This document shows, one piece after another, positions 33,801-50,966 of a stretch of DNA of 64,000 nt. The notes under the pieces are model-generated. The model was not told where the DNA came from and did no database searches. It worked only from the letters and a program-made list of their open reading frames with translations. Within the stretch, counting starts at the first letter, position 1; every line of letters begins with the position of its first letter. The DNA comes from Shewanella donghaensis (lineage in GTDB: Bacteria > Pseudomonadota > Gammaproteobacteria > Enterobacterales > Shewanellaceae): the NCBI RefSeq assembly GCF_007567505.1, contig NZ_CP041783.1:1488001-1552000 (forward strand), given 5' to 3'. The translations under genes and the position numbers were made by a program.

Positions 33801-34823
33801 ATGGCAACAATATATGACGTTTCAGTCTTAGCTGGCGTTTCACTTGCGACGGTGTCGAGGGTGATGAATAACAATACAAAAGTCAGTGATAAGACCAAGG
33901 AAAAGGTATTAAATGCAATGGAGCAATTAGGCTATCGCCCTAATACCATTGCGCAGTCATTAGCTTCCAATCGCTCTAATAGTGTTGGTGTATTAGTTTC
34001 TCAATTAGACGGTCCGTATTACGGCCCTATGATGACTGAAATTGAAACCGCACTTAGAACTGCAAATAAACACGTTATTATTGCAGCCGGTCATAGTGTT
34101 GAATCCCAAGAAAAAGAAGGCGTTGAGTTTTTAATGAGCCGAGGCTGTGATGCCTTAATTCTTGATGTCGAAGCTGTTGATGATGCCTATTTAATTAAGC
34201 TGCTTCAAGGCACTACGCCGATAGTACTAATTAACCGCTATATCGAAGAAGTAAAAGATTTTTGCATCTATTTAGAAAATGAACTTGGTGGTTATCTGGC
34301 GACCAAACATATTCTTAGTCATGGCCATACTGCAATAGCTTATATTTCTGGTCCTAAGTTCAAATTAGATGCTCAAGACCGATTATTAGGTCACCAACGC
34401 GCGTTAAAAGAATATGGCCTAGAGTTTGATGAGCAACTGTGTTTTGAAGGTGACTTTAAAGAAAACAGTGGCAGCGAAGCAATGACTCGCTTGTTAGATG
34501 TAAAGCAAATAGACAACAACAAGAATTTTACCGCTGTAGTGTGTGCTAATGATCAAATGGCCTCAGGGGCTATTGCTGTTTGCCTCGATCAAGGCATGAA
34601 AATCCCTGAAGATTTATCTTTTGTAGGTTACGATAATATTCCGTTCCCACAATACATCTCCCCTAAGCTCACCACAGTGAATAACCCAATTCATGAAATG
34701 GGTAAGATGGCAGCATTTTGGGTGCTTAAAAACGTCTATAGCGACCCTAAAGCCTGTGTTGAGAATACCTTTATCCCACAGTTAATTGTTAGAGAGTCTG
34801 CAACAAGCCCTTCTAAACAATAG
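33801..34823 (+). CDS. LacI-family regulator of the beta-glucan locus
   Basis: A 340-residue repressor. The N-terminal helix-turn-helix TIYDVSVLAGVSLATVSRVMNN and hinge GYRPNTIAQSLASNRSN are followed by a periplasmic-binding-type sugar domain (about 60-335; VGVLVSQLDGPYYGPMM, VVCANDQMASGAIAV, SFVGYDNIPFPQYISP). The location between the GH1/GPH pair and the TBDR, plus four nearby operators with the AAGCGCT core, indicates local control. I recall a BglR regulator of this kind described for Shewanella beta-glucoside genes. The inducer is probably a beta-glucoside or glucose. No operator was seen before its own start. Confidence 0.9.
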   Translation: MATIYDVSVLAGVSLATVSRVMNNNTKVSDKTKEKVLNAMEQLGYRPNTIAQSLASNRSNSVGVLVSQLDGPYYGPMMTEIETALRTANKHVIIAAGHSVESQEKEGVEFLMSRGCDALILDVEAVDDAYLIKLLQGTTPIVLINRYIEEVKDFCIYLENELGGYLATKHILSHGHTAIAYISGPKFKLDAQDRLLGHQRALKEYGLEFDEQLCFEGDFKENSGSEAMTRLLDVKQIDNNKNFTAVVCANDQMASGAIAVCLDQGMKIPEDLSFVGYDNIPFPQYISPKLTTVNNPIHEMGKMAAFWVLKNVYSDPKACVENTFIPQLIVRESATSPSKQ

Positions 34824-35657: not shown

Positions 35658-38657
35658 ATGAAACCTAGAACATTTACAAAAACCAGAATTGCCACTAGCT
35701 TGTCGGTAATACTGAGCGCAAGTACCATGATGCCAGCATTTGCAGCAGATGAAGCCGTAGCAGATGAAAATATCGAAGTACTACAAGTCACCGGGATCCG
35801 CGGAAGCTTAATTAAATCAATGGATTTAAAGCGTAGCTCTAACGGTGTTGTTGATGCAATTAACGCAGAAGATATTGGTAAGTTCCCGGACAGTAACTTA
35901 GCAGAATCTTTACAACGTATTACCGGTGTATCAATTGACAGACAAAACGGCGAAGGTAGTCGTGTCTCTGTTCGTGGTTTTGGTGCAGACCAAAACTTAG
36001 TGATGCTTAATGGCCGTCAAATGCCTGTGACAACAGGTTCACGTTCATTTGATTTTGCCAACATTGCTTCTGAAGCAATTAGCGCAGTTGAAGTTGAAAA
36101 AACCAGCCAAGCTAAAAACTCTACTGGTGGTATTGGCGCAACAATTAATGTTCTAACTCATCGTCCTTTAAGCTCTCCTGGTCTAAAAGCCAGTTTCGGT
36201 GTTAAGGCTGTTGATGATACTTCTACTGATGAAGGTTCTATCACTCCAGAACTTTCAGGTATTTACTCAAATACTTTCGCCGATGGTAAATTCGGTGTAT
36301 CAATTTCAGCAAGTTACCAAGAACGTGAAAGTGGTAACCAGCAAGCCCAAGTGGGCACAGGTTGGCGTAGCTTCCCTGGTATCGTTGATCAAGATTGGGG
36401 CGGCGATAACGCAGAATGGGGTGGTGTACCAAAAGATGGCAATCAAATTAACCGTCCTGGTGAAGGTGATGTTTATGCGGTACCACAAACAACTGTGTAC
36501 CGTTTTGAAGAGCAACAACGTGCTCGTACCAATGGTCAGTTAGTCCTGCAGTACGAACCAATAGACTCTTTGCGTGCAACGTTAGATTACACATACATGC
36601 AAAACGACATCGATACTCAATCACATGATGTATCTGCATGGTTTAACTTTGTACCAACACAAGAAAGTACTTGGTCAGACGGCCCAGTATCTTCACCTCT
36701 AGTTTATTCTGAAACCTACCCTGATGGCGGCGCTGATTTATCAATGGCAGCTGGCGATTATGGTACGCGTGATGAAAGCAACTCAATCGGGTTTAATTTA
36801 GAGTGGGATGCAACTGATAACTTATTCTTATCACTGGATTACCATAGCTCTGATGCTGAGCGTTCACCTAACAATAAAAATGGTAGTAACAGTAACTTAA
36901 GTACAGCAGCATTTATTCGTACTAGTGCGGCAACTGACTTTACTGGTGATGTACCTGTACTTGCTGTCGGCGGCGGTAATCAAGTTCGCCCTGAAGATAT
37001 GCGCATAACTGGTTCTGTATTTGGTAATGCCCGTAACAAGTCTGAAATTGATCAATTACAAATAAATGGTACTTACGTATTTGAAGAAGCGGGTAGCATT
37101 GACTTTGGTATTGCGGCAACTGACGTAAACAACCACTCGCAATCAGTAAACGTTCAACGTAATGACTGGGGCGGCGTGGGTAGTGCAGGAGATTTAGATG
37201 CTGAATGGTTCCCTGCTGGTAGCGTACAAGACAAATTTGATGGCTCACAAGGTGACTTCTCAGATTATGAAGGTTCTGCATCAGTTGACCCACAAGATGT
37301 GATTTTCTTATGGGACTTTGAAGCCGTTAGATCTGCAGCTGCTGGTCTATATGGTTCTACCGCTGTTGGTGATTGTGGTAATGGCTTCTGCCCTTCTACA
37401 GATTATGCAAGTGATACCGATCGCTACACACAAGAAGAAACTCAGTCAGCTTATATCCAATATAACTACGAAGGCGACATCGGTGACATGCCATTTGATG
37501 TGCACTTTGGTGTACGTTATGAGCAAACTGATGTTGAATCAAAATCTGCAGTAACAGCTTATGATCAAGCAACTTGGATTGCTGAAACTGAAGTCGCGCT
37601 GCAAAGTACTGGCGCTGATAGCCGTGTATTCCAGACCCAAACCGGTGAATACGATTACTTCTTACCAAGCTTTAACTTCAATATTGAAGTGGTAGAAGAT
37701 GTGATGTTACGTGCTGCATACAGTGAAACTATTGGTCGCCCTGATTACACCTCAATTCAAGGTGGTACATCAGTTGGCACACTAGCTAACCGTGGTGGTG
37801 GTAGTGGTACAGCAGGTAACCCAAGCTTATTACCGCTAGAATCTGAAAATATCGATTTTTCTGCTGAATGGTACTACGCCGAAGGAAGTTATGTTTCTGC
37901 TGGTTACTTCAGAAAAGATGTTTCAAACTTTATTGATAACAACTCTGTCGATTCAACGATTTATGAGATTCCAGATCCATCAAACGGTGTCTATGTTCAA
38001 GAAGCTATTAATGCAGGTCAAGTAACAGCTATTGAGCAACGCCAGTGGATTTATGACACTTACGGTGCAACAGATCCAAACGTTACGATGAACCCAGATA
38101 ATGGCAATATTGAAATCACTGGTAACGCTGGTGACCCAAGTATTAACTTTATCCTTAATACGCCATCTAACAGTTCTGAAAGCTCAGTTATCGATGGTTG
38201 GGAGTTTGCGGTACAACACTTCTTTGGCGAATCTGGTTTTGGCATGCAAGCTAACTATACGTTAGTGAATGCGGGTGATTCTTATGACAATTACAACCTA
38301 AACCGCCCTGGTGATGCCGAGCAAAATGTATTAACTAACATTAGTGATACAGCTAACGTTGTTGCTATGTATGAAGATTACGGTTTCTCTGCGCGTTTAG
38401 CTTGGAACTGGCGTGATGAGTTCTTAAGCGCTACGGGTGATGGAACAGGTGCAAATCCGACTTATACTGAAGAATACTCTCAAGTAGATTTCAATATAGG
38501 TTATGACATTGCTGCAGTTGAAGGCTTAACAGTGTTCTTCGAAGGTCTAAACATTACCAACGAAAATACTCGTACTCATGGTCGTTCATACTCTCAAGTA
38601 CTTAATTACACCCAAACCGGAGCCCGTTACAGCTTAGGTGCTCGTTACACATTCTAA
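35658..38657 (+). CDS. TonB-dependent receptor, Caulobacter/Xanthomonas carbohydrate type
   Basis: A 999-residue receptor. Its signal peptide ends at PAFAADEAV, then the TonB box IEVLQVTGIRGS. The plug has RVSVRGFGADQNLVMLNGRQMPV and AVEVEKTSQAKNSTGGIGATINVLTHRPL, typical of the group associated with polysaccharide use (TIGR01782). The barrel ends SLGARYTF with terminal Phe. The start at 35658 has GGGGAG six bases upstream. Two LacI-type operators precede it. The ligand is probably a beta-glucan oligosaccharide. It is followed by a terminator and the halogenase cassette; this type of receptor commonly has such a cassette as neighbour. Confidence 0.95.
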   Translation: MKPRTFTKTRIATSLSVILSASTMMPAFAADEAVADENIEVLQVTGIRGSLIKSMDLKRSSNGVVDAINAEDIGKFPDSNLAESLQRITGVSIDRQNGEGSRVSVRGFGADQNLVMLNGRQMPVTTGSRSFDFANIASEAISAVEVEKTSQAKNSTGGIGATINVLTHRPLSSPGLKASFGVKAVDDTSTDEGSITPELSGIYSNTFADGKFGVSISASYQERESGNQQAQVGTGWRSFPGIVDQDWGGDNAEWGGVPKDGNQINRPGEGDVYAVPQTTVYRFEEQQRARTNGQLVLQYEPIDSLRATLDYTYMQNDIDTQSHDVSAWFNFVPTQESTWSDGPVSSPLVYSETYPDGGADLSMAAGDYGTRDESNSIGFNLEWDATDNLFLSLDYHSSDAERSPNNKNGSNSNLSTAAFIRTSAATDFTGDVPVLAVGGGNQVRPEDMRITGSVFGNARNKSEIDQLQINGTYVFEEAGSIDFGIAATDVNNHSQSVNVQRNDWGGVGSAGDLDAEWFPAGSVQDKFDGSQGDFSDYEGSASVDPQDVIFLWDFEAVRSAAAGLYGSTAVGDCGNGFCPSTDYASDTDRYTQEETQSAYIQYNYEGDIGDMPFDVHFGVRYEQTDVESKSAVTAYDQATWIAETEVALQSTGADSRVFQTQTGEYDYFLPSFNFNIEVVEDVMLRAAYSETIGRPDYTSIQGGTSVGTLANRGGGSGTAGNPSLLPLESENIDFSAEWYYAEGSYVSAGYFRKDVSNFIDNNSVDSTIYEIPDPSNGVYVQEAINAGQVTAIEQRQWIYDTYGATDPNVTMNPDNGNIEITGNAGDPSINFILNTPSNSSESSVIDGWEFAVQHFFGESGFGMQANYTLVNAGDSYDNYNLNRPGDAEQNVLTNISDTANVVAMYEDYGFSARLAWNWRDEFLSATGDGTGANPTYTEEYSQVDFNIGYDIAAVEGLTVFFEGLNITNENTRTHGRSYSQVLNYTQTGARYSLGARYTF

Positions 38658-38692: not shown

Positions 38693-38722
38693 TGAGGTGA
38701 TCGTTATGGTCACCTCTTTTTT
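38693..38722 (+). terminator. Terminator after TBDR gene
   Basis: AGGTGA and TCACCT arms (7-8 bp with flanking G-C pair), 9-base loop, then TTTTTTC. It lies between the receptor and the halogenase cassette, so the cassette depends on read-through or its own promoter. Confidence 0.85.
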
Positions 38723-38873
38723 CTTAAGCTACATCCATTTGCAACAGGGACGTTGCATTTTTTTTAGACAAATTAATACAAATTATTACTAACTACCCCT
38801 TGTAAGTGTTTGAAAAATATTCAATGCTAGTTAAGTAAGCCTTAATGAAATCAATAAAAAAACAGGCCCTCTT

Positions 38874-40472
38874 ATGGAACAAGCGATAAAAAATATAGTC
38901 ATTGTTGGCGGCGGCACCGCTGGTTGGATTACAGCAGGTATTCTTGCTGCTGAACATAATGCTGATAATGGCAAACTATCGCCTAGCCCCAAATTGAATA
39001 TAACCCTAATAGAATCTCCTGATGTTGCAACCATTGGTGTCGGAGAAGGCACTTGGCCTTCAATGCGAACCACCCTTCAAAAGATTGGTATCAGTGAAAC
39101 TGAATTTTTAATCAGCTGCGATGCTAGCTTTAAGCAAGGTTCACGATTTATTAACTGGACTCGCTCACACACCGATAACCAAAATAATACAATTAATAAA
39201 ATCGGCGATCATTACCTACACCCTTTTAGTTTACCTATGGGCACCAACGAAATTGACTTATGTCCGTATTGGTTACCCCACAGAGAACACGTCAACTTTG
39301 CTGATGCTGTAGGTCAGCAAAATCAACTAAGCCAGCTATTTTTGGCACCTAAACAGATCACCACCGCCGAATATCAATTTCAAAACAATTATGGTTACCA
39401 CCTAAACGCTGGGAAATTTAGCCAATTATTACAAAAGCATTGCACTGAAAAACTCGGTGTCATTCATATTCGCGATCACGTGACTGCTATTCATAAAAAA
39501 GACAATGGTGATATCGCATTTTTAGCAACTAAAATCTCTGGCGATATTGCTGCTGATTTATTTGTTGATTGTACTGGTGTGAAGTCATTACTTTTAGGTG
39601 AGCAACTTAAAGTGCCATTCGTTTGCAAAAAGTCAGTGTTATTTAATGATTCAGCTTTAGCGGTTCAAGTGCCTTACGCGAGTGAAGATGCCCATATTGC
39701 ATCCAACACTCATTCAACAGCACAAACCAATGGTTGGATTTGGGATATCGGCTTACCTACCCGCCGTGGTGTTGGCCATGTGTATTCCTCCGGTCATACA
39801 ACTCAAGCTGAAGCTGAGCAACAACTCGTCGATTACCTAAAACCAACAGTTGGGTTGGATATTGATAATCTCAATATTAGATCGCTTTCTATTGCGCCAG
39901 GTCATAGGCAAGTTTGTTGGAAAAATAACTGTATGGCCATTGGCATGGCGTCAGGTTTTATTGAGCCACTAGAAGCTTCAGCTTTAGCGCTAGTTGAGTG
40001 GAGTGCTAATACCCTGGCTCAACAGTTACCTGCTAATCGCCAAGTTATGGACATTGTATCGAGTAGAGTTAATAAACGTTTCCAGCAACATTGGCAGCAA
40101 ATCATTGAGTTTTTAAAATTACATTACGTGTTGAGTAAACGCAGTGATAGTGACTATTGGCATGATCATCGTGAATCATTAACTATCCCAGATAGCTTGC
40201 TAGAGCAATTACAGCTGTGGCAGACACAGCCTCCGAGCCGTCATGATATTCAGCATACCGACGTGCTGTTTCCTGCGGCTAGTTTTCAATTTGTGCTTTA
40301 CGGAATGGATTTTGAAACCCAGATGCCAGACCAATTGAAACCTTCTTTGCAAAATAGAGCTCAGCAATTATTTGCAGAAAACAATAAACGTACTCAAGGT
40401 TTAAAACAATTACTGCCGAGTAACCGAGAACTGTTAAACAAGATCAAGCAATACGGACTTTCCCGTATTTAG
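38874..40472 (+). CDS. Flavin-dependent halogenase-like protein 1 (GEGTWP subtype)
   Basis: A 532-residue protein of the tryptophan-halogenase family. The FAD-binding loop is VGGGTAGWITAG (residues 11-22). K87 in ASFKQGSRFINW aligns with the catalytic Lys79 of PrnA/RebH, and E364 in SGFIEPLEAS with the paired Glu346. The motif GWxWxIP is altered to GWIWDIGLP (287-295), and GEATxP is GEGTWPSM (58-64). Real substrates of TBDR-linked members are unknown; relatives such as BrvH and the Xanthomonas enzymes brominate indole in vitro. No signal peptide; cytoplasmic. It needs a flavin reductase, which is not in the cassette. It is the first gene of a five-gene run. Confidence 0.88.
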   Translation: MEQAIKNIVIVGGGTAGWITAGILAAEHNADNGKLSPSPKLNITLIESPDVATIGVGEGTWPSMRTTLQKIGISETEFLISCDASFKQGSRFINWTRSHTDNQNNTINKIGDHYLHPFSLPMGTNEIDLCPYWLPHREHVNFADAVGQQNQLSQLFLAPKQITTAEYQFQNNYGYHLNAGKFSQLLQKHCTEKLGVIHIRDHVTAIHKKDNGDIAFLATKISGDIAADLFVDCTGVKSLLLGEQLKVPFVCKKSVLFNDSALAVQVPYASEDAHIASNTHSTAQTNGWIWDIGLPTRRGVGHVYSSGHTTQAEAEQQLVDYLKPTVGLDIDNLNIRSLSIAPGHRQVCWKNNCMAIGMASGFIEPLEASALALVEWSANTLAQQLPANRQVMDIVSSRVNKRFQQHWQQIIEFLKLHYVLSKRSDSDYWHDHRESLTIPDSLLEQLQLWQTQPPSRHDIQHTDVLFPAASFQFVLYGMDFETQMPDQLKPSLQNRAQQLFAENNKRTQGLKQLLPSNRELLNKIKQYGLSRI

Positions 40473-40574
40473 ACTTTATAACGTCAAAAATAGACAAAGT
40501 GAACAATCACAATAACGACTGTATAAACAATAACAACATAAACAGCTACGACTGTACTTGATTAGGATGTCAGC

Positions 40575-41300
40575 ATGAACAAACCAGAATTACTTAATAG
40601 CGTCGATCACAAAGATTTGAAAATCATCACTGAGCGTTCAGCACAATACGGCGATGACTTATGGTATACCGTTACTTTTCCGCTAGAATTTCGCAGTGTT
40701 CAGGCAAATTATCCAATATTCTTTCAAAAAGATAGCCAAACGGGTCAGTTCTATTCAGTAGCTTTATTTGGCTTTCAGCACAAAGAAAACTTGTTCTTAA
40801 AAGAAGGTAAATGGGATGCATCATACATCCCACTAACCGTTCGTCGTCAGCCTTTCTTAATTGGTCAGCAGAAAGTCCAAGAAGATGGTGTTGAACAACT
40901 ACAACGTGTCATTCACCTTGATCCTAACCACCCTCGCCTTAGTCAAACAGAAGGTGAAGCTTTATTCTTCCCATATGGCGGTAATACACCCTATTTAGAT
41001 GAAGTCGGCGATATGCTTGAAGCAATCCATCATGGGTTGAGTGATAGCAAACAGTTCATCGACACTTTACTTAAATTAGAGTTACTTGAATCCTTCACCC
41101 TTGATGTTCAATTGGATAACGGTGAAAAACATCAAATGATCGGTTTCTATACTATTAACGAAGAAACCTTAGCCGCATTATCCGCCGAAGTATTAGGTGA
41201 GTTACATCAGCAAGGCTATCTAAATGCCATCTATATGACACTTGCATCGCAATCTAATATCAGACAGTTACTTAATTTAAAAAATGCACAGAATACCTAA
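40575..41300 (+). CDS. SapC family protein
   Basis: A 241-residue soluble protein of the SapC family (PF07277). The start is YTVTFPLEFRSVQANYPIFFQKD, then FGFQHKENLFL and LTVRRQPFLIG, with LFFPYGGNTPYLDEVGDML in the middle. The family name comes from a Campylobacter surface-array gene, but the biochemical role is unknown. In TBDR-linked cassettes it regularly accompanies halogenase-like and JmjC-like genes, which suggests a common pathway. It has no signal peptide. AGGATG precedes the start. Gaps to the neighbours are 102 and 54 bases. Confidence 0.9.
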   Translation: MNKPELLNSVDHKDLKIITERSAQYGDDLWYTVTFPLEFRSVQANYPIFFQKDSQTGQFYSVALFGFQHKENLFLKEGKWDASYIPLTVRRQPFLIGQQKVQEDGVEQLQRVIHLDPNHPRLSQTEGEALFFPYGGNTPYLDEVGDMLEAIHHGLSDSKQFIDTLLKLELLESFTLDVQLDNGEKHQMIGFYTINEETLAALSAEVLGELHQQGYLNAIYMTLASQSNIRQLLNLKNAQNT

Positions 41301-41354
41301 ATCTAATTGAATTAGGTTTATTGCAAAATTAAGAACTCGACAAGATGTAAGGTA

Positions 41355-42413
41355 ATGACCATGGCACTAAATCAGGCAGTAGAACAAGCAGCAAAGCAGG
41401 CTGTAAAAGTGATACATGATTGTCCGTTAAGCGATATTCAAGCAGTCATTGAAGCGATGGCTGTTGAAAACACCGTTCAGCCTGTCATTTTTAAAGGTGC
41501 TTGCCTTGATTGGCCTTTGGTACAAGCTGGGTTAACCTCGGTTAAATCGGCAGCGGATTACTTACTGTCTTTTTATCAAGAAACCCCGGTTACAGCCTAC
41601 TATGTAGCGCCTGAACATAAAGGCAGAGTTTTTTATAATGAGCAGGTTAATGGTTTTAATTACCAAGCAAGCCAACTCAACTTAAGACAAGTGATTGATA
41701 AACTCTTTGCCCATCAAGATGATGAATTGCCGCCGAGTATCTATATGGGCTCAACTGAGATTAATCACTTTCTTCCAGGTCTCAGTACTGACAACAGCCT
41801 TAATATTGAACCTGTTCGTCCACTCACTAGTGTATGGCTTGGTAATCAATCTCGCATAGCAGCCCATTTTGATTTTCCGCAAAACCTTGCCTGTAATGTC
41901 GTGGGTAAACGCACCTTTACCCTTTTCCCGCCTGAGCAAGTGGCTAACTTATATGTTGGCCCAATGGAGTTTGCGCCTGGCGGACAAGAAATTAGCATGG
42001 TGGACTTTGATAACCCTGACTATGAACGCTTCCCAAAATTTCAACACGCGTTAGATGCTTCTCAAACTGCCGAGTTAGCCCCTGGTGACGTTTTATATGT
42101 ACCAAGTATGTGGTGGCACCATGTTGCAGGAAATGAAGTATTTAATGTACTCATTACTCACTGGTGGCGTGATACCCCTGGCTATTTAGGTAGACCCAAT
42201 AATGCCCTAGCGTTAGCGATACTGAGTTTACGCTCATTGCCAAAAGCGCAGCGTCAGGCCTGGAAAGCCATGTTTGAGCATTATGTATTTGACCATGATG
42301 ACGACGATTTAGCCCACATTCCCAGAGAAGCTCAAGGGATGCAGACTAAACCGCTTGATGAACTGAATGCCCGAAAATTGAGAGCTGATTTAATCAATAA
42401 ATTAAAACGATAA
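41355..42413 (+). CDS. JmjC/FIH-like cupin-8 oxygenase
   Basis: A 352-residue protein of the cupin_8/JmjC type. The iron triad is H171 and D173 in AAHFDFPQNL and a distal His in SMWWHHVAG (255/256). K185 in VVGKRTFTLFPPEQ fits the 2-oxoglutarate-binding Lys of FIH. The context HFD..QN....GKR..LFPPEQ is very close to asparaginyl hydroxylase FIH, so protein or peptide hydroxylation is a reasonable guess. The N-terminal helical part (1-50) is less conserved. The start is ATG 41355, with ATG 41361 as alternative; TAAGG lies upstream. All key residues are present, so it should be active. Confidence 0.88.
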   Translation: MTMALNQAVEQAAKQAVKVIHDCPLSDIQAVIEAMAVENTVQPVIFKGACLDWPLVQAGLTSVKSAADYLLSFYQETPVTAYYVAPEHKGRVFYNEQVNGFNYQASQLNLRQVIDKLFAHQDDELPPSIYMGSTEINHFLPGLSTDNSLNIEPVRPLTSVWLGNQSRIAAHFDFPQNLACNVVGKRTFTLFPPEQVANLYVGPMEFAPGGQEISMVDFDNPDYERFPKFQHALDASQTAELAPGDVLYVPSMWWHHVAGNEVFNVLITHWWRDTPGYLGRPNNALALAILSLRSLPKAQRQAWKAMFEHYVFDHDDDDLAHIPREAQGMQTKPLDELNARKLRADLINKLKR

Positions 42414-42478
42414 CAATGAAGTGATTAATCAATCTTGATCTTAATAAGAATAATGCGAATAAATATTAAGGAATACTG

Positions 42479-43975
42479 ATGAAAATGCCAAATAAACCCA
42501 TTAAAAAAGTCGTCATCGCAGGCGGCGGCACCGCTGGCTGGATGACAGCAGCGGCATTAACTAAGTTATTAGGTAAAAACCTTGAAGTAGTGCTCGTTGA
42601 ATCTGATGAAATTGGCACTGTCGGTGTCGGTGAAGCGACCATCCCTACCCTGCATATTTTCCATCGCTTATTAGGGATTAAAGAACAAGATGTCATGGCT
42701 GCAACCAATGCCACCTTTAAACTCGGTATTTCTTTTGAAAACTGGCATGACGTCGGTAAAGATTATATTCATTCATTTGGCTTTTTAGGCAAAGATTGCT
42801 GGGCTTGTGGTTTTCAACACTTTTGGCTTAAAGGTCAGCAACGTGGACTAGTCAGTGAAATTGGCGATTATTGTACTGAGCATTTAGCCGCCCGCGAAGG
42901 TCGCTTTGCGGTGTTACCCAATCAAGATTACAACCACGCCTATCATATGGATGCCACTCTATACGCGAAATTCTTGCGAAAAATAGCAGAGCAACATGGC
43001 ATTAAACGCATTGAGGGTAAAATTTCTGATGTGCAGCAACACGATGAAAACGGCCATATCAGTGCACTTAAAATGATGTCAGGTGAAGTGATTGAAGGCG
43101 ATTTATTTATTGATTGCACTGGTTTTAAAGCGTTATTAATCGAGCAAACACTGAACGCAGGCTTTGACGATTGGAGTCACTGGTTACCTTGCGATAGTGC
43201 TATTGCTGTACAAACTAAAACCGTCAATAAGCCAATACCTTATACTCGCTCAATTGCGCGTGATTCTGGTTGGCAATGGCGCATACCGCTACAAAGCCGC
43301 ACCGGTAACGGCATTGTTTTCTGCAGCAAGTTTATGAGTGATGAGGATGCCAAAGCCACTTTAATGGAAAACATTGAAGGTGAGCCGTTAACGGATCCAC
43401 GAGTGATTAAGTTCCGCACTGGTAGTCGCCGTAAAACCTGGGATAAAAACTGTGTCGCTATTGGTCTGTCTTCTGGTTTTTTAGAGCCTCTAGAATCCAC
43501 CAGCATTCATTTGATTCAGCGAGGGATCGTTCGCCTACTGCAAATGTTCCCCTCACAAGGCATTGTTGAAGAAGATATCAATGAGTTTAACCAGCAAACT
43601 CGCACAGAAACCGAGAATATTCGTGACTTCATTATCTTGCATTATAAAGTCACAGACAGAGTTGATACTCGTTTCTGGCGTCATTGTAAAAGCATGGACG
43701 TACCAGCTTCACTGCAACATCGAATCGACATGTTTGATGCTTCAGGCAAAGTCTACAAACACGGTAATGAGTTATTTGGCGAAAGCTCTTGGATACAAGT
43801 AATGATGGGCCAAGGTCTAGCGCCGAAACAATATCACCCGATTGTGGATATGATGGAAGATGAGGAGCTGGAACATTTTCTAGGAAACATCAAAATGAAG
43901 GTTAAGCAAAAAGTGGCCAACTTGCCTGATCACTATGAGTTTGTGCAGCACTATTGTAAATCAAACATCATTTAA
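42479..43975 (+). CDS. Flavin-dependent halogenase-like protein 2 (canonical motifs)
   Basis: A 498-residue tryptophan-halogenase-family protein. It has AGGGTAGWMTAAAL (14-27), GEATIPTLHIF (51-61), catalytic K81 in ATFKLGISFENW, the full GWQWRIP motif (264-270), and E336 in SSGFLEPLES. All hallmarks of a working flavin halogenase are kept, unlike the first paralogue, where GWxWxIP is altered. Cysteine-containing WACGFQHFWLKG (108-119) is notable. The start ATG 42479 has AAGGA six bases before it. It is the fourth gene of the cassette, 65 bases after the JmjC gene. Confidence 0.92.
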   Translation: MKMPNKPIKKVVIAGGGTAGWMTAAALTKLLGKNLEVVLVESDEIGTVGVGEATIPTLHIFHRLLGIKEQDVMAATNATFKLGISFENWHDVGKDYIHSFGFLGKDCWACGFQHFWLKGQQRGLVSEIGDYCTEHLAAREGRFAVLPNQDYNHAYHMDATLYAKFLRKIAEQHGIKRIEGKISDVQQHDENGHISALKMMSGEVIEGDLFIDCTGFKALLIEQTLNAGFDDWSHWLPCDSAIAVQTKTVNKPIPYTRSIARDSGWQWRIPLQSRTGNGIVFCSKFMSDEDAKATLMENIEGEPLTDPRVIKFRTGSRRKTWDKNCVAIGLSSGFLEPLESTSIHLIQRGIVRLLQMFPSQGIVEEDINEFNQQTRTETENIRDFIILHYKVTDRVDTRFWRHCKSMDVPASLQHRIDMFDASGKVYKHGNELFGESSWIQVMMGQGLAPKQYHPIVDMMEDEELEHFLGNIKMKVKQKVANLPDHYEFVQHYCKSNII

Positions 43976-44022
43976 GTTTGACTCATCGCTGAATAAATAA
44001 GTTGCTAACGGATCCGCACACT

Positions 44023-44778
44023 ATGACCGATTTAAAACCCGCTAAAGATTCGTCAACTAGCGCTAAGAGCTTAAACTCAATGGTGTTGGTGAATAAAGCG
44101 CTCAAGCCACAGATTGTTTATGTTGGTGAGTTAAAAACACCAGTCATTGTGATTGATGATTTTACTGCTGATTTATCTGAGCTACAAGCCTGTGCCAGTC
44201 AAATCGATTTTAATCTCGATATGGGCTCTTATTACCCAGGCGTGAGAGCCAAATTGCCTCGAGATTACGTGGTTGAAGTGCTTAATTATGTGTTTCAACT
44301 TATCTATGATGTTTATAAAATACCAACAAATTTACGGATTAAGCCTCAAGCGACTTATTTTTCGTTAATTAATCGCCAACCTGAAACTTTAACGACATTA
44401 CAACGCATCCCACATTTTGATACGCCAGCGCCCTATTACTTTGCCATCTTGCAGTATTTAAATGACGCCCCCCATGGGGCGACTGCTTTTTTCAAGCATA
44501 TTCCCAGCGGTTATGAGCGTATTACTAAAGAAAACATGAAGCAGTACTTCAATGCTGCTGAACCTTATTTAGAAAAAATAGCCCCCGAGCCAGCTAAATA
44601 TTTTGTTGAAAGTAACCAGTATTACCAGCAGCATCATCAAATTGAATACAAGCAACATCGATTGGTGATTTACCCAGGGAACTTATTACATTCAACTTTA
44701 GTCAATCCATTAACAGACATTGATAGCAGCCCTGAAACAGGCCGCTTAACCGCTAATGTGTTTATCAATATCGAATAA
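44023..44778 (+). CDS. DUF6445 protein with 2-oxoglutarate oxygenase-like triad
   Basis: A 251-residue soluble protein from ATG 44023; an upstream TTG at 44002 is less likely. It fits DUF6445, which accompanies TBDR-linked halogenases. H131 and D133 in RIPHFDTPAPY, H223 in PGNLLHSTLV and R241 in GRLTANVFI have the order and spacing of the prolyl-hydroxylase-type Fe(II)/2-oxoglutarate site (HxD..H..R). GATAFFKH with a P-G-N turn also suits a double-stranded beta-helix. This reading is inference from pattern. It is the last gene of the cassette, 26 bases after halogenase 2 (48 to this start). Confidence 0.75.
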   Translation: MTDLKPAKDSSTSAKSLNSMVLVNKALKPQIVYVGELKTPVIVIDDFTADLSELQACASQIDFNLDMGSYYPGVRAKLPRDYVVEVLNYVFQLIYDVYKIPTNLRIKPQATYFSLINRQPETLTTLQRIPHFDTPAPYYFAILQYLNDAPHGATAFFKHIPSGYERITKENMKQYFNAAEPYLEKIAPEPAKYFVESNQYYQQHHQIEYKQHRLVIYPGNLLHSTLVNPLTDIDSSPETGRLTANVFINIE

Positions 44779-44966
44779 GATTTACTGTGGTTATCTATCG
44801 CACTTAAATTTGGTTTTTAAATACCACGGTGTCAACGGCTAGATTCATTCTATTACTAGTGGCAAGTGGCAAGTCAATTAGTACCAAAAAAACAATTTTT
44901 ATAAAGTACACCTTACCTACACCATAACAATTAAAAGCATAAAACTAATCCAGCAAGGAGCCTGTG

Positions 44967-47600
44967 ATGAGACAAAAATCTCAAACAAAAATGAAAGCGC
45001 TTACAAAAAGAATCCAGCTCGCATTAGCACTCACCGCTGCTGCGGCAAGTGCTATAGGTATTTCAGCAAATGTTGTAGCCTCTTCAGATAACACATCATC
45101 TCAATCACATGCCTTATCGGTGTTATCTGATAGCGAAAAACAGCGCTTACAACATCGTTTGTCTAATGTAGAAACTGAAATTGAGCGCCTATTGTCGCAA
45201 CTCACTTTAGAAGAGAAAGTCTCTCTAGTGCATGCTGGCGGTAAATTTCATATCCCAGCAATTGAGAGATTAAATATTCATGAAATGTGGATGTCTGATG
45301 GCCCCCATGGCGTCCGTTATGAAATTGACCGAAACTCATGGGCACCTGCAGGCTGGACCAATGATTACTCCACTTACTTGCCACCTTTAACCGCTGTTGC
45401 TGCCAGTTGGGATCCAAATATGGCAAGCTTACACGGTAATGTTTTAGGCGCAGAAGCCCGCCATCGCAATAAAGATTTAATCCTCGGCCCTGGGGTAAAT
45501 TTAGCTCGTTTACCTTTGTATGGTCGTAACTTTGAATACATGGGTGAAGACCCCTTTTTGGCAGCAGCACTAGTAGTACCGACAATTAAAGCTATTCAAG
45601 CCAATGATGTTGGCGCCACAGCCAAGCATTATGCCCTTAACACGCAAGAGTTAAACCGCACAGGCGTTAATGCCATACCCCATGAGCGTACCTTACGAGA
45701 AGTGTATTTACCGGCATTTGAGGCCGCAGTAAAGCAAGGTAATGTGCACGCGATTATGGGCGCTTATAATGAATTTCGAGGTACTAATGCCAATCAAAGT
45801 AAGCATCTCATTAAAACCATTTTAAAAGGTGAATGGGGCTACGAAGGCGTGCTTCTCACCGATTGGAATGTTGATATCAATACCTATGACGCCGCCATGA
45901 ATGGCCTTGATATCGAAATGGGTACTGACATAGCCAGTTACGATGAATACTTTCTTGCAAAACCGCTATTAGAGATGATCAAAGCAGGTAAAGTGCCTGA
46001 GTCTGAATTAGACGATAAAGTTCGCCGTATTCTAAGAGTGCAGCTCAGTATCGGTATGATGGATAAGCAACGTTTATCTGGAGAGCGCAATACGCAAGCA
46101 CATCGTGATGATGCAAGAACTATCGCTACCAACGGTGTTGTACTGTTAAAGAATGATAATCGCGTATTGCCACTGGATAGCAGCAAAGTAACAAACATTC
46201 TGGTTTTAGGGCCTAATGCAGATAAGCGTCATGGTTTTGGTGGCGGTTCATCTGAAGTAAAAGCGTTATATGAAATAAGTCCACTTGATGGTCTTAAGGC
46301 TAAGCTTGAGCAAGTAAATGGCAAGGTAAAGATTGAACATATGCGCCCTGCCAGTAGTCAATTTATGCCCATTCCCAATGACTACCTCACCACACGACAT
46401 TGGACTGGTACGCCGTCATGGCAGATTAATTACTTTGCTGATGCAAAGATGGAGCAATTCAGCAGTGAATCATGGATTGCAGACCCACAGTTTGATACCA
46501 AGGGCAAAGCGCAAATCATCGAAATTAAAGCTAACATTAAGCCTATGGAAACGGGTAACCATACCTTAAAGATTAAAGGTAGCGGCAAAGTATCGTTAAC
46601 CATAAATGATAACCGTTTAGTTAGCAGTACTCAGGTAACTGATGCAAAAGTGCTAAGCCAAGATATCAAGCTAACCGCAGGTGAAACCTATGCCTTTAGC
46701 TTAACTTACCAGGGTGATGAAACGGTTACCTTAGGCTGGGAAACGCCCAACAGTTTGTATAACACAGAAAAAGAATATCTAGCAGCAGCGAAGAATGCTG
46801 ATGCAGTACTATATTTTGGTGGTTTAAGCCATGCTGACGATCGTGAATCTATTGACCGTCCTGATATGAAGCTGCCAGGTCAACAAGATGAAATCATCGC
46901 TAAGCTATTAACAGCGAACCCAAATACCGTGGTATTTATGATTGGTGGCTCAGCGGTAGAAATGCCATGGGCAGATGATGCCAATGCTGTGTTATGGGGC
47001 TGGTATGGCGGTATGGAAGCGGGACATGCTTACGCTGACATCCTATTTGGCGATGAAAACCCAAGTGGAAAGATGCCGATAACATTACCGAAAAAACTCG
47101 CTGATACCGCGCCAATTGCCCTCAATGATTATAACGAAAAGGAATCACGTTATAGCGAAGGTGTATTCATTGGCTATCGTTGGTTCGAACAACAAAATAT
47201 CACGCCACAATTTCCTTTTGGCCACGGTCTATCCTATAGCGACTTCACCTACTCAGACATTCAATTTTCAACTGATAATATTAAAGCTGATGACACTATT
47301 ACTGTTACAGCAACAATAACCAATAGCAGTAAAACCGATGGCGCTGAAGTGACTCAGTTATATTTGCATGATATTGATGCCAGTGTCCCTCGCCCAGCCA
47401 AAGAGTTAAAAGGTTTTGATAAAGTGTGGTTAAAAGCCGGTGAAAGCAAACAAGTGAGTTTTACCTTAACCACCCGAGACCTGTCTTTTTGGGATATAAA
47501 AACCAATGATTGGTTAGCTGAAACGGGTAAGTTTGAAGTAATGATTGGTTCATCTGTCGCTGATATCAAGTTACGTAAAAAGTTTACCTACATGCAGTAG
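44967..47600 (+). CDS. Secreted GH3 beta-glucosidase with PA14 insert
   Basis: A 877-residue exported enzyme from ATG 44967, with AAGGAG at 7-base spacing; the adjacent ATG 44964 is less well placed. The signal peptide reaches about residue 39 (ANVVASS). The GH3 domain has WMSDGPHGVRYEI, AKHYALNTQELNR and nucleophile D299 in GVLLTDWNVD. A PA14-type domain (about 475-600; HTLKIKGSGKVSLTINDNRL) is inserted in the second domain. A C-terminal fibronectin-III-like domain ends it. It probably acts in the periplasm on beta-glucosides. A LacI-type operator lies inside codons 9-13. Confidence 0.93.
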   Translation: MRQKSQTKMKALTKRIQLALALTAAAASAIGISANVVASSDNTSSQSHALSVLSDSEKQRLQHRLSNVETEIERLLSQLTLEEKVSLVHAGGKFHIPAIERLNIHEMWMSDGPHGVRYEIDRNSWAPAGWTNDYSTYLPPLTAVAASWDPNMASLHGNVLGAEARHRNKDLILGPGVNLARLPLYGRNFEYMGEDPFLAAALVVPTIKAIQANDVGATAKHYALNTQELNRTGVNAIPHERTLREVYLPAFEAAVKQGNVHAIMGAYNEFRGTNANQSKHLIKTILKGEWGYEGVLLTDWNVDINTYDAAMNGLDIEMGTDIASYDEYFLAKPLLEMIKAGKVPESELDDKVRRILRVQLSIGMMDKQRLSGERNTQAHRDDARTIATNGVVLLKNDNRVLPLDSSKVTNILVLGPNADKRHGFGGGSSEVKALYEISPLDGLKAKLEQVNGKVKIEHMRPASSQFMPIPNDYLTTRHWTGTPSWQINYFADAKMEQFSSESWIADPQFDTKGKAQIIEIKANIKPMETGNHTLKIKGSGKVSLTINDNRLVSSTQVTDAKVLSQDIKLTAGETYAFSLTYQGDETVTLGWETPNSLYNTEKEYLAAAKNADAVLYFGGLSHADDRESIDRPDMKLPGQQDEIIAKLLTANPNTVVFMIGGSAVEMPWADDANAVLWGWYGGMEAGHAYADILFGDENPSGKMPITLPKKLADTAPIALNDYNEKESRYSEGVFIGYRWFEQQNITPQFPFGHGLSYSDFTYSDIQFSTDNIKADDTITVTATITNSSKTDGAEVTQLYLHDIDASVPRPAKELKGFDKVWLKAGESKQVSFTLTTRDLSFWDIKTNDWLAETGKFEVMIGSSVADIKLRKKFTYMQ
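44992..45005. promoter_or_regulatory. LacI-family operator inside GH3 coding region
   Basis: TGAAAGCGCTTACA is the exact reverse complement of the operator at 30655. It begins 25 bases after the chosen start codon, where a bound repressor could act as a roadblock. Confidence 0.65.
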
Positions 47601-47947: not shown

Positions 47948-49105
47948 GTGAGTAAAAGTGAACTACCAGATGCTTTTGAGCAAGCTCGTGTTAATAGCGG
48001 AATTGGCCATATTGAAGATCAAAACGATCCTGTCACTATGGTATTAGGCCTTAAAGAAGTCAGAAAGTGCGCCCACAATTGGAAAGCATTTCAGTCGGGT
48101 GCCAAGCCTGGTCGTATCGTTGTTCCTTCTGAGGTCAACATCAGAACAACCCGTCAGATCCCTTTTGAAGTAGATCCTCCCGAACATAAAAGTTTTCGAG
48201 ACTTACTCGATCCCTGGTTCAAAAGACCATTAGATCCGCAATACCAACAGCAGTTAACTGACATTATTGAATCGGTTGTTGAACAAGCTATCCAATCAGA
48301 TTCTGTTGAAGTCGTTGAGCAGTTCTCACTAACATTACAGTCGCAGGCATTAACCTTATTACTCAATACCCCATTGAAGGAATCTGAAACCTGGATTAAT
48401 TGGGGAACACATGTCTTTAGAAGTAATGACTCGGAACTGGATGCTGATAAAGCCGCCATTTTATATGACTATATTGATAAGCAAATTGATCTTAAAAAAG
48501 CTAACTTATCGAATGACTTATATTCAGAATTATTACGCGCTGAAGTCGATGGTAACAAGCTCACTAAAGAGCAGATAAAAGGTGTCATGATCCTCACCTT
48601 TGCTGGAGGAAGAGATACGATTATTAACGCGGTCACCAATACCGTCGCTTACTTTGCAGAGCATCCAGAGTCACTTGAGCGTCTAAAGCAAGAACCTGAA
48701 ATAACCACTAAAGCCGTTGAAGAGTTGATTCGCTATTTCTCACCTCTTACCCATATGGGGCGCGTCGCCACTACTGACACTCAAGTTTGTGAACACGCCG
48801 TCAAGGCTGACACTCGAATTTCACTCTGCTGGGCATCTGCAAATCGCGACGCCAACGTGTTCGAAAACCCCAACCAAATCATTTTAGACCGCAAAATTAA
48901 CCCACATGTCGGTTTTGGCTTTGGGGCTCACAACTGCTTAGGCGCTACTCACGCGAGACAAATTTTAAAAATTTTAGTATCTAGCCTCGCGACAAAAGTT
49001 GAATCAATTGAAATCCTATCAAAGCAAGATAACGTTGAGCACTGGGGCGAATTTAAGCGCAAAGTAGGCTTTAACCAGCTACGAGTAAAGTTTACCCCTA
49101 GGTAA
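47948..49105 (+). CDS. Cytochrome P450 monooxygenase
   Basis: A 385-residue soluble class I bacterial P450. The I-helix oxygen motif is FAGGRDTI (219-224 core), the ExxR is E259-L-I-R262, and the heme thiolate is C330 in FGFGAHNCLG. Translation starts at GTG 47948 with AAGGAG upstream. It forms a run with ferredoxin and ferredoxin reductase genes, giving a complete NADH-driven hydroxylation system. In marine polysaccharide loci such trios (CYP236A) oxidatively demethylate 6-O-methyl-galactose; placement here beside a beta-glucan locus makes a sugar-ether or aglycone substrate possible but unproven. Other hydroxylations are equally possible. Confidence 0.93.
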   Translation: MSKSELPDAFEQARVNSGIGHIEDQNDPVTMVLGLKEVRKCAHNWKAFQSGAKPGRIVVPSEVNIRTTRQIPFEVDPPEHKSFRDLLDPWFKRPLDPQYQQQLTDIIESVVEQAIQSDSVEVVEQFSLTLQSQALTLLLNTPLKESETWINWGTHVFRSNDSELDADKAAILYDYIDKQIDLKKANLSNDLYSELLRAEVDGNKLTKEQIKGVMILTFAGGRDTIINAVTNTVAYFAEHPESLERLKQEPEITTKAVEELIRYFSPLTHMGRVATTDTQVCEHAVKADTRISLCWASANRDANVFENPNQIILDRKINPHVGFGFGAHNCLGATHARQILKILVSSLATKVESIEILSKQDNVEHWGEFKRKVGFNQLRVKFTPR

Positions 49106-49157
49106 CCCAATCGATTTATCTACATCGCACCGAAACAATGACTTTAAAAGAGAAAAC

Positions 49158-49490
49158 ATGATGCAAATTACCTTTATTACTCAAGAAAATACCCCTATCA
49201 CAGTTGAAGCTGACTTTAGTTCTGGAGCGCAAGCCTCGCGTTCAGTAATGGAGCTGGCGGTTGAAAATAATATTGATGGTATTGATGGAGATTGTGGCGG
49301 GGTATGTTCCTGCGCCACTTGTCATGTTTATGTCGCCAAAGAGCACATAGATAAAACAGGTACTGCCAGTGAAATTGAGACCGACATGTTAGAGCTTGAT
49401 GATAATGCCAACGAGTTGAGTCGCCTTTGCTGCCAAATAGCACTATCTGAGACATTAGATGGTTTAGTGCTGACTGTTGCACCGTCTTAG
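49158..49490 (+). CDS. [2Fe-2S] ferredoxin, adrenodoxin type
   Basis: A 110-residue electron carrier. The cluster ligands are C46, C52 and C55 in DGDCGGVCSCATCHVYV, plus C91 or C92 in SRLCCQIAL. This CX5CX2C-X35-C arrangement is that of P450-serving ferredoxins (putidaredoxin, adrenodoxin). An extra cysteine at 50 is present. It lies 52 bases after the P450 gene and should pass electrons from the reductase at 49638 to the P450. Confidence 0.95.
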   Translation: MMQITFITQENTPITVEADFSSGAQASRSVMELAVENNIDGIDGDCGGVCSCATCHVYVAKEHIDKTGTASEIETDMLELDDNANELSRLCCQIALSETLDGLVLTVAPS

Positions 49491-49637
49491 CCTATCGCGC
49501 GAATACACGCACCATTAGCACTGCCAAGATCAGTGCTAGATGTTTAGTGCTAAAAGATGAGTCTTAGAAGATAAGTGTTTAGATAATAAATTGTTAGATA
49601 ATGAATAGAAACTCGTTAAGTATTGTAAGGGTAAGAT

Positions 49638-50966
49638 ATGACAGTTACACCAGCAGAAAACCAGCCTAGCAAACATAATGACAATTCAACACTAAGGTGC
49701 TTAGTGATTGGTGCCAGCCATGCTGGGGTTAACCTTGCTTTTACGTTAAGAAAACAAGGCTGGCTTGGTGATATCTGTCTTTTTGATACCGACCCCTCCC
49801 TTCCTTATCACAGACCACCATTATCAAAAGGGGCTCTACTAAATGATGATCAACAAGCCCCTTTAAAATCAGCTGAAAGTTATGCAAAGGCAAATATCTC
49901 GCTAAAGCTGGGGATCAGTATTGTTCAGATAAATAGAGACGATAAGTCCATTATTGATAATCTTGGTAACACTCACCATTATAACAAATTGATACTAGCA
50001 ACTGGGGCTCGCGCGTTTTTACCACCAATAGCTGGAATTGAAAGTTCCCAACAATTATTTACCCTTCGCACAGCCAAAGATGTCGAGCAAATAAAAGTGG
50101 CCTTATCAAACAGCCCAACAAAAAGAGTGGTGATTATTGGCGGCGGTTACATCGGTTTAGAAACCGCTGCATCATTGAAAAAACTTGGAGCTAGTGTCAC
50201 CGTTTTAGAGCGAGAACCTAGGCTATTAGCTCGCGTTACCGCACCAATCATGTCGGATTTTTTTGCTCAATTGCATCAACAACACGATGTCGGAATATTC
50301 CTCAATAAGAATGTAGAAGCCATTAAGCTCAATAAACAACAAAACAGCTCTTCTCAATTCGTCACCTGCACTGATGGTACCCAATATCGCGCCGATGTGA
50401 TTATTGTTGGGGTTGGCATCACAGTTAATACTGAACTGGCCGCTGAATCTGGATTAAAAACAGATAATCAAGCACTCAATTTAAAAGGTATCGTCGTCAA
50501 TAAAAATCTGCAAACTAGCGACAATAACATCTATGCCATAGGCGATTGCACTTTGCACCACAATCCATATTATGATCGAGTAATAAGATTAGAATCGGTT
50601 CAAAATGCGGTAGACCAAGCTAAAATAGCCGCGACAGCATTATGTGAAGTGTTAGACATTAATAACCCCAAAACGACAGGTTATGATGCTCTCCCCTGGT
50701 TTTGGTCAGATCAATATAACGTTAAGTTGCAGATGGTAGGGTTAGCCCAAGGTTATGATGAAGTACTAAAACGTATCGAACTAGACGATGAAAACAAGTT
50801 TTCAGTTTGGTACTTTAAAGGCAATAAACTATTAGCGGTTGATGCCATAAATCACGCCAAAGCCTATGTCATAGGTACAAAGTTGTTAAAAAGTAATGCA
50901 ATTATAAATAAGCAGAAATTACTGAATAGCCAGCTTGAGTGTACACAGCAAAGCTTCGTCGATTAA
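49638..50966 (+). CDS. NAD(P)H:ferredoxin reductase (FAD)
   Basis: A 442-residue pyridine-nucleotide-disulphide-fold reductase of the putidaredoxin reductase type. The FAD site is LVIGASHAGVNLAFTLR, and YHRPPLSKGALL is a family hallmark. The NAD(P)H site is VVIIGGGYIGLETAASLKKLGASVTVLE, with Glu at the strand end favouring NADH. AIGDCTLH is the second FAD motif. No redox-active CXXC is present, as expected for this class. The C-terminal domain (about 335-415) ends in basic residues. It is third in the P450 operon, after a 147-base gap with short AT-rich repeats. Confidence 0.93.
   Translation: MTVTPAENQPSKHNDNSTLRCLVIGASHAGVNLAFTLRKQGWLGDICLFDTDPSLPYHRPPLSKGALLNDDQQAPLKSAESYAKANISLKLGISIVQINRDDKSIIDNLGNTHHYNKLILATGARAFLPPIAGIESSQQLFTLRTAKDVEQIKVALSNSPTKRVVIIGGGYIGLETAASLKKLGASVTVLEREPRLLARVTAPIMSDFFAQLHQQHDVGIFLNKNVEAIKLNKQQNSSSQFVTCTDGTQYRADVIIVGVGITVNTELAAESGLKTDNQALNLKGIVVNKNLQTSDNNIYAIGDCTLHHNPYYDRVIRLESVQNAVDQAKIAATALCEVLDINNPKTTGYDALPWFWSDQYNVKLQMVGLAQGYDEVLKRIELDDENKFSVWYFKGNKLLAVDAINHAKAYVIGTKLLKSNAIINKQKLLNSQLECTQQSFVD

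Follow-up and report, generated by a model that had tools for sequence, protein, structure and literature searches.

A halogenase, SapC and oxygenase gene cassette tied to TonB-dependent receptors in Shewanella donghaensis: a candidate receptor-modification module

Gene layout and linkage to TonB-dependent receptors

We analysed a 64,000-nucleotide (nt) stretch of the Shewanella donghaensis genome (assembly GCF_007567505.1, contig NZ_CP041783.1, positions 1,488,001 to 1,552,000, forward strand), hereafter the window, and in it a cassette of five genes behind a TonB-dependent receptor (TBDR). The cassette encodes two proteins of the flavin-dependent halogenase (FDH) family, designated FDH-B and FDH-A, together with SapC, an FIH-like JmjC/Cupin_8 oxygenase and a DUF6445 protein (Table 1). 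An earlier note on this DNA had described five co-directional genes with gaps of 26-102 nt between a TBDR and a secreted glycoside hydrolase (GH) of family 3, and open reading frames (ORFs) and Pfam matches agree with that layout. The gaps are, in order, 102, 54, 65 and 26 nt, and the DUF6445 gene starts at a TTG, with an ATG 21 nt further in. The receptor scores 634 bits against TIGR01782 (cut-off 310). On inspection by eye, none of the five cassette proteins carries a signal peptide, as the note had also stated, and the N-terminus of the GH3 protein is signal-peptide-like.

Table 1. Features of the cassette and its locus, with positions counted from the first letter of the window
Feature	Position	Strand	Profile match
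LacI/GalR-family regulator of the locus	33801..34823	+	
TonB-dependent receptor, TIGR01782, clade X, cognate to the cassette	35658..38657	+	
Trp328 codon of the receptor (SHDVSAWFNFVP); candidate target residue, lead only	36639..36641	+	
Two terminator-like hairpins with T runs at the receptor-cassette junction; proposed partial terminator	38694..38757	+	
FDH-B, flavin-dependent halogenase family, GVGEGTWP / WIWDIG type	38874..40472	+	PF04820, 365 bits
SapC, proposed adaptor/chaperone for the exported receptor	40575..41300	+	PF07277, 246 bits (gathering score 28.9)
FIH-like JmjC/Cupin_8 oxygenase, HxD...H	41355..42413	+	PF13621, 223 bits
FDH-A, flavin-dependent halogenase of the Xcc4156/BrvH kind, GVGEATIP / WQWRIP	42479..43975	+	PF04820, 643 bits
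DUF6445, predicted Fe(II)/2-oxoglutarate oxygenase fold, HxD...H...R; optional cassette member	44002..44778	+	PF20043, 217 bits
Secreted GH3 glycoside hydrolase, same locus, not a constant cassette member	44964..47600	+	

The cassette was followed in 80 loci of other species, those of the best FDH-A relatives in a species-level collection, which came from Alpha-, Beta- and Gammaproteobacteria. Gene orders were TBDR-FDH-SapC-Cupin8-FDH in 25 loci, TBDR-FDH in 12 and TBDR-SapC-Cupin8-FDH in nine, with minor variants, and the median gaps between the main cassette genes were 2-11 nt. Among the 66 loci with at least 6 kb of upstream sequence, 62 had a TBDR within 5 kb, and in 59 it lay immediately upstream on the same strand, separated by nothing but cassette genes; against a generous assumed background of 19.5%, the probability of 62 of 66 is about 3e-39. 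The genome of S. donghaensis has five FDH loci with six strong FDH genes in all; each locus directly follows a TIGR01782 receptor, and these receptors are the five top-scoring of nine above the TIGR01782 cut-off. The statistical linkage to such receptors that the earlier note anticipated is thus borne out.

Two further arrangements were seen among these loci. One locus (L097) carries tandem cassettes, FDH-SapC-Cupin8-FDH followed by TBDR-SapC-Cupin8-FDH. At four others (L057, L084, L098 and L105) the available flank of the FDH-A relative contains no TBDR, and L084 keeps the order FDH-SapC-Cupin8-FDH.

The five loci of the S. donghaensis genome serve several glycans. The window locus, the beta-glucan one (GH16/GH3/GH1), also includes a GluP-type transporter, a GPH symporter and LacI; its GH1 is a beta-glucosidase, a GH3 in it is nearest to an exo-beta-1,3/1,6-glucosidase, and we infer that it serves the utilisation of laminarin-type beta-glucan. 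The others comprise a starch locus (alpha-amylases; TBDR-FDH-A), a xylan locus (GH10 and GH43; TBDR-SapC-FDH-A-DUF6445), an N-acetylglucosamine (GlcNAc)/chitin locus (GH20 and a NagA-like amidohydrolase; TBDR-FDH-B-SapC) and a fifth whose glycan is unclear (TBDR-FDH-B-SapC). Cassette neighbours in other genomes included LacI, alpha-amylase, GH3, GH16, GH1, GH67 and GH97, and no aromatic-degradation family was among the commonest. An aromatic part of an algal polymer had been suggested as the target; in one genome the same enzymes go with receptors that adjoin starch, xylan, GlcNAc/chitin and beta-glucan genes, and FDH-A follows receptor clade, which weakens that suggestion, and we reject an aromatic group of one algal polymer as the general substrate. 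Neither GH3 nor any other single hydrolase was a constant cassette neighbour, and GH3 is therefore an unlikely target.

All four SapC genes of the genome lie inside cassettes, and of its three DUF6445 genes one is an orphan (L021, 9235-9942), placed between two DEAD-box-helicase-like genes with no FDH or TBDR nearby. In a sample of 160 genomes drawn from the phylum, 14 of them with strong FDH matches, DUF6445 occurred in six, all among the 14 halogenase carriers (p ~1.4e-7). SapC was present in 13 of the 14 halogenase genomes and in 50 of the 146 others. DUF6445 thus accompanies the halogenases, whereas SapC also occurs widely outside that setting. Caulobacter vibrioides, searched as a control, gave matches to PF04820, SapC, TIGR01782 and Cupin_8.

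Just downstream of the GH3 gene in the window, genes for a cytochrome P450, a 2Fe-2S ferredoxin and a ferredoxin reductase stand in a row (47948-50966), a complete P450 electron chain adjoining the polysaccharide locus.

FDH-A lineages and receptor clades

We compared the phylogeny of the cassette proteins with that of their receptors. Mantel correlations with TBDR distance were 0.79 for FDH-A, 0.79 for FDH-B, 0.82 for SapC and 0.59 for Cupin_8; none of 1000 permutations reached the value observed for FDH-A, and none did for FDH-B or SapC. The FDH-bearing receptors belong mainly to three clades, X, Y and Z. Clade X receptors accompany SapC/JmjC cassettes and span beta-glucan and xylan loci, clade Y receptors accompany FDH-A alone or with FDH-B and some adjoin amylases, and at clade Z receptors the FDH genes are often divergently placed. 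The FDH-As of clade X receptors form a single FDH-A clade (Jaccard 0.98, support 0.97). Across the compared genomes, every correctly assigned FDH-A had its nearest foreign relative at a receptor of the same clade; two entries, L092_13002 and L176_9497, arose artefactually from the distance rule, being second receptors close to a cassette. The window FDH-A lies at a distance of 0.23 from its foreign counterpart and 1.21 from the FDH-A of the starch locus of its own genome. Since X and Y FDH-As are far apart within one genome and near their foreign counterparts, organismal phylogeny is an unlikely cause of the pattern. These results indicate that the FDH-A phylogeny tracks receptor clade rather than organism.

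The junction between receptor and cassette has a feature of its own. Behind the window receptor, two hairpins with T runs occupy 38694-38716 and 38740-38757. A terminator scan of the window alone does not rise above the shuffled expectation, so the argument rests on comparison across genomes, where terminator-like hairpins were found in 26 of 94 receptor-to-cassette gaps, where mononucleotide shuffles would lead one to expect 0.2, and in none of 219 gaps inside cassettes. This pattern suggests partial termination, with more receptor than enzyme, or a separate cassette promoter, and would fit many receptor copies served by few enzyme copies.

Cassette enzymes and SapC

FDH-A and FDH-B share about 29% identity, and their respective motif sets are kept across most of 101 and 56 sequences. 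Within the FDH-A family the catalytic Lys was found in 132 of 138 proteins, the catalytic Glu in 135 and the Pro of WxWxIP in 129, and the window FDH-A is complete for GxGxxG, Lys, Glu and WxWxIP. FDH-B retains the catalytic Lys and Glu in 63 of 64 proteins and fails WxWxIP, with Gly or Ala replacing Pro in 54 (WxWxIG 47, IA 7) and Pro present in six. The iron ligands HxD...H were found in all 67 JmjC proteins and HxD...H...R in all 19 DUF6445 proteins. The four enzymes had been called probably oxidative, and, as judged from these motifs, the residues required for oxidation are intact in all four; the FDHs could equally well halogenate or hydroxylate.

The best solved match of FDH-A was Xcc4156 (6y1w, E 8.6e-201), followed by BrvH (6frl, E 1.7e-148). 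Like FDH-A, brvH has a second FDH gene adjacent, but the papers on these two nearest solved relatives treat single enzymes in vitro, without mention of TonB or SapC (PMC7336383, PMC5945002, PMC8269204). The match of FDH-B to 2pyx, a putative tryptophan halogenase structure, spans the full length (E 2.4e-240); for that entry neither a function nor a gene context turned up. The motifs ATIPTL and HSFGF of FDH-A resemble the group C list. In comparisons made without alignment to the reference set, the Trp1/Trp2 motifs resemble the group C listing of PMC8269204 and the Trp4 substrate-binding motif of groups A and B, the halogenases of free Trp, was not apparent in the halogenase sequence. Group C halogenases act on indoles and not on free Trp, their native substrates being unknown, and the substrate site of BrvH is open to solvent (PMC5945002, PMC7336383, PMC8269204); the group also holds MibH, which acts on Trp within a peptide (PMC8269204).

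A halogenase-like flavoprotein acting on protein-bound Trp has a precedent in QhpG (PMC7876137). QhpG, LodB and GoxB share the halogenase-like fold, oxidise Trp in protein and match both FDHs weakly, but their products are quinone cofactors (PMC7876137). Membership in these families was rejected: the FDHs reached 33.7 and 37.4 bits on the model for QhpG-type peptidyl-Trp oxygenases (NF049967), whose cut-off is 240, and scored far under the cut-off for LodB/GoxB. A MibH-type cluster, with the precursor of a ribosomally synthesised and post-translationally modified peptide between cassette genes, was also rejected, as median gaps of 2-11 nt leave no room for one; the search did not extend to a distant precursor.

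Among solved structures, the JmjC protein is closest to FIH, a protein-side-chain hydroxylase (E 5e-22 across 113 residues that include HxD...H); FIH itself, a human enzyme, hydroxylates asparagine in other substrates, and only its catalytic part aligns with the cassette protein. DUF6445 is modelled (predicted local distance difference test, pLDDT, 88) with an Fe(II)/2-oxoglutarate oxygenase fold: Foldseek matched it to 2-oxoglutarate-Fe(II) oxygenases at a probability of 1.00, with a template-modelling score of only ~0.4, and PiuC (9qn0) was among the matches. CciT-CciO, Fiu-YbiX and PiuA-PiuC resemble the cassette in being operons of a TBDR and an Fe(II)/2-oxoglutarate oxygenase whose substrate is unproven, but these are iron receptors with one oxygenase and no halogenase, JmjC protein or SapC (PMC12004943). 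Membership among PiuC/CciO-type pairs was rejected, the receptor being of TIGR01782 type in a glycan locus and the oxygenases Cupin_8 and DUF6445.

SapC was modelled with a pLDDT of 97 and had no PDB match by structure or by sequence; its Trp80 is invariant (68/68). Its wider contexts were sampled at 20 loci outside the sampled halogenase cassettes, and at eight of them it stood beside or one gene from genes for exported surface proteins or for export. Neighbours included RTX proteins (L235 and L243, adjoining or one gene off), a TPS/FHA-type adhesin (L241), a tandem-repeat filamentous protein (L239), a DUF4214 protein (L236) and TBDRs (L244, L254); the remaining 12 loci had no informative neighbour. 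At L238 (4492-9548) SapC is flanked by a daptide-protease/HlyD-like protein and a SecA2-like protein, possibly its own export system, and L239 also has a halogenase-family ORF ~3.6 kb from SapC.

Candidate targets of the cassette

The match between FDH-A and receptor lineages, the diversity of glycans, the relation to FIH and the SapC contexts lead us to favour, tentatively, a receptor-modification module that acts before export and oxidises the receptor rather than a sugar. SapC would engage the chain of the cognate receptor while it is still in the cytoplasm, ahead of Sec export; FDH-A, joined by FDH-B in cassettes that have it, would halogenate or hydroxylate an electron-rich aromatic side chain; the FIH-like enzyme and, where present, DUF6445 might hydroxylate further side chains; and the modified receptor would then be exported and inserted in the outer membrane. 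More speculatively, the cassette may be dedicated to placing a halogen or hydroxyl on side chains of sugar receptors before export, with SapC as adaptor and a loop Trp as target, altering ligand binding or masking the receptor from phages or bacteriocins. The earlier note had proposed a single target for all the enzymes: the conserved receptor-bound module stands, the receptor or a partner protein as that target is favoured only, and the GH3 it allowed for has become unlikely.

The best single candidate site would be Trp328 of the window receptor (SHDVSAWFNFVP). In an unbiased comparison, the receptor columns that separate the FDH-A clades X+Y from others were Y745, G378, D394, F922, N380, G409 and W328, then R120 and others, and W328 is of special interest because halogenases attack indoles. 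Trp occupies this position in 62 of 62 clade X and 22 of 26 clade Y FDH-A receptors (84/88, 95%), and its neighbours in the loop, which reads 'SAWFNF' around it, are at most 52% conserved. From topology only, the residue is predicted to lie in an extracellular loop, ~23 residues past a putative periplasmic turn (P301-L305) and beside length-variable columns; the receptor has no sequence match in the PDB. In the discovery set, Trp was present in 70 of 75 FDH-A receptors against 7 of 17 cassette-free ones. When receptor segments were tested in sliding windows for partial correlation with FDH-A distance, the maxima were weak and diffuse (residues 462-501 and 319-361 and the signal-peptide region), and they settle nothing. 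A second Trp ('STWSDGP') was inconsistent as an FDH-B target on inspection by eye, and Asn at Trp+2 was not supported as the JmjC target, being enriched yet not invariant.

Clusters of four FDH-type genes were observed at four loci (L162, L171, L188 and L112), three of them with a Cupin_8 gene mid-cluster; the adjoining TBDR has Tyr at the candidate site.

Several observations weigh against receptor modification and against Trp328 as its site. The support for a protein substrate is indirect, and the matching of FDH-A and receptor lineages amounts to co-inheritance, which physical linkage alone could also maintain. The cassette includes no flavin reductase, though halogenases of this kind require reduced flavin; four of the 66 FDH-A loci have no TBDR nearby; and the SapC-context figure of 8/20 may in part reflect how often any gene adjoins one for an exported protein. 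W328 ranks seventh, not first, among the separating columns. The independent sample gave a modest difference (15/27 FDH-A against 10/41 cassette-free receptors, Fisher p 0.012), many of its misses being clade Z receptors, where Tyr is common; in clade Z, which has FDH-A, the site is mostly Tyr or another residue. Trp328 also occurs in four of five cassette-free clade X receptors and in receptors with FDH-B and SapC only, and Asn at Trp+2 was present in 37 of 55 Cupin_8 cassettes.

Because this pattern is confounded with receptor phylogeny, Trp328 is a lead and not a result. Aromatic residues are common in glycan-binding loops, and the chance is about even that Trp328 is a sugar-stacking residue of one receptor set, with the cassette inherited alongside for an unrelated reason. 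That Trp is kept in cassette-free clade X receptors and in 25% of other cassette-free TBDRs speaks for this explanation, whereas its recurrence in clades X and Y, which are separated in the tree by receptors mostly without Trp, speaks against it; the latter point is weakened by shared X-Y features that leave room for a common origin.

As to the substrate itself, we consider it rather unlikely, though worth weighing, that the cassette oxidises a small molecule for catabolism or detoxification after uptake, either an aglycone or aromatic substituent that enters along with the oligosaccharide or a shared metabolite of the indole or phenol type. In favour of this, most known flavin-dependent halogenases use small aromatics, and in vitro BrvH brominates indole (PMC5945002). 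The cassettes sit in catabolic loci, together with LacI regulators and sugar transporters, and the TBDR-oxygenase pairs PiuA-PiuC and CciT-CciO have been suggested to metabolise the ligand that they import (PMC12004943). But starch, xylan, GlcNAc/chitin and beta-glucan loci share no aromatic group, no aromatic-degradation family is among the commonest neighbours, FDH-A follows receptor clade, clade X covers both beta-glucan and xylan loci, and the FIH relation and SapC contexts point to proteins.

That the target is another protein appears more doubtful still; the candidates would be SapC, a TonB/ExbB component, a lipoprotein or a secreted glycoside hydrolase, and the receptor gene would then be just a co-regulated neighbour. 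The invariant Trp80 would suit SapC, whose distances also track those of the receptor better than do those of the other three components, but many FDH-A cassettes (12 x TBDR-FDH) lack SapC, no single hydrolase is constantly adjacent, and it is receptor clade that sorts the FDH-A lineages. Finally, it is very improbable that the cassette proteins are former enzymes that form no product and now serve receptor expression as accessory factors or as sensors dependent on FAD or iron: the departure of FDH-B from WxWxIP would agree with it, but the catalytic Lys/Glu of both FDHs and the motifs HxD...H and HxD...H...R are kept at the frequencies given above.

In the literature searched, in which few subscription journals were covered so that absence is not proof, we found no paper linking a halogenase with a TBDR and SapC. 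The enzyme families are known; their assembly as a receptor-bound module is not described there. For group C halogenases, crystal structures and in vitro activities exist while the physiological substrate is not known, and the sorting of FDH-A lineages by receptor type narrows the substrate search to the receptor or to something that accompanies it, and yields a short list of residues open to testing. If receptor modification is true, outer-membrane proteins would be covalently modified in a way not reported before, SapC and DUF6445 would gain a role, and biotechnology would obtain protein-directed halogenases.

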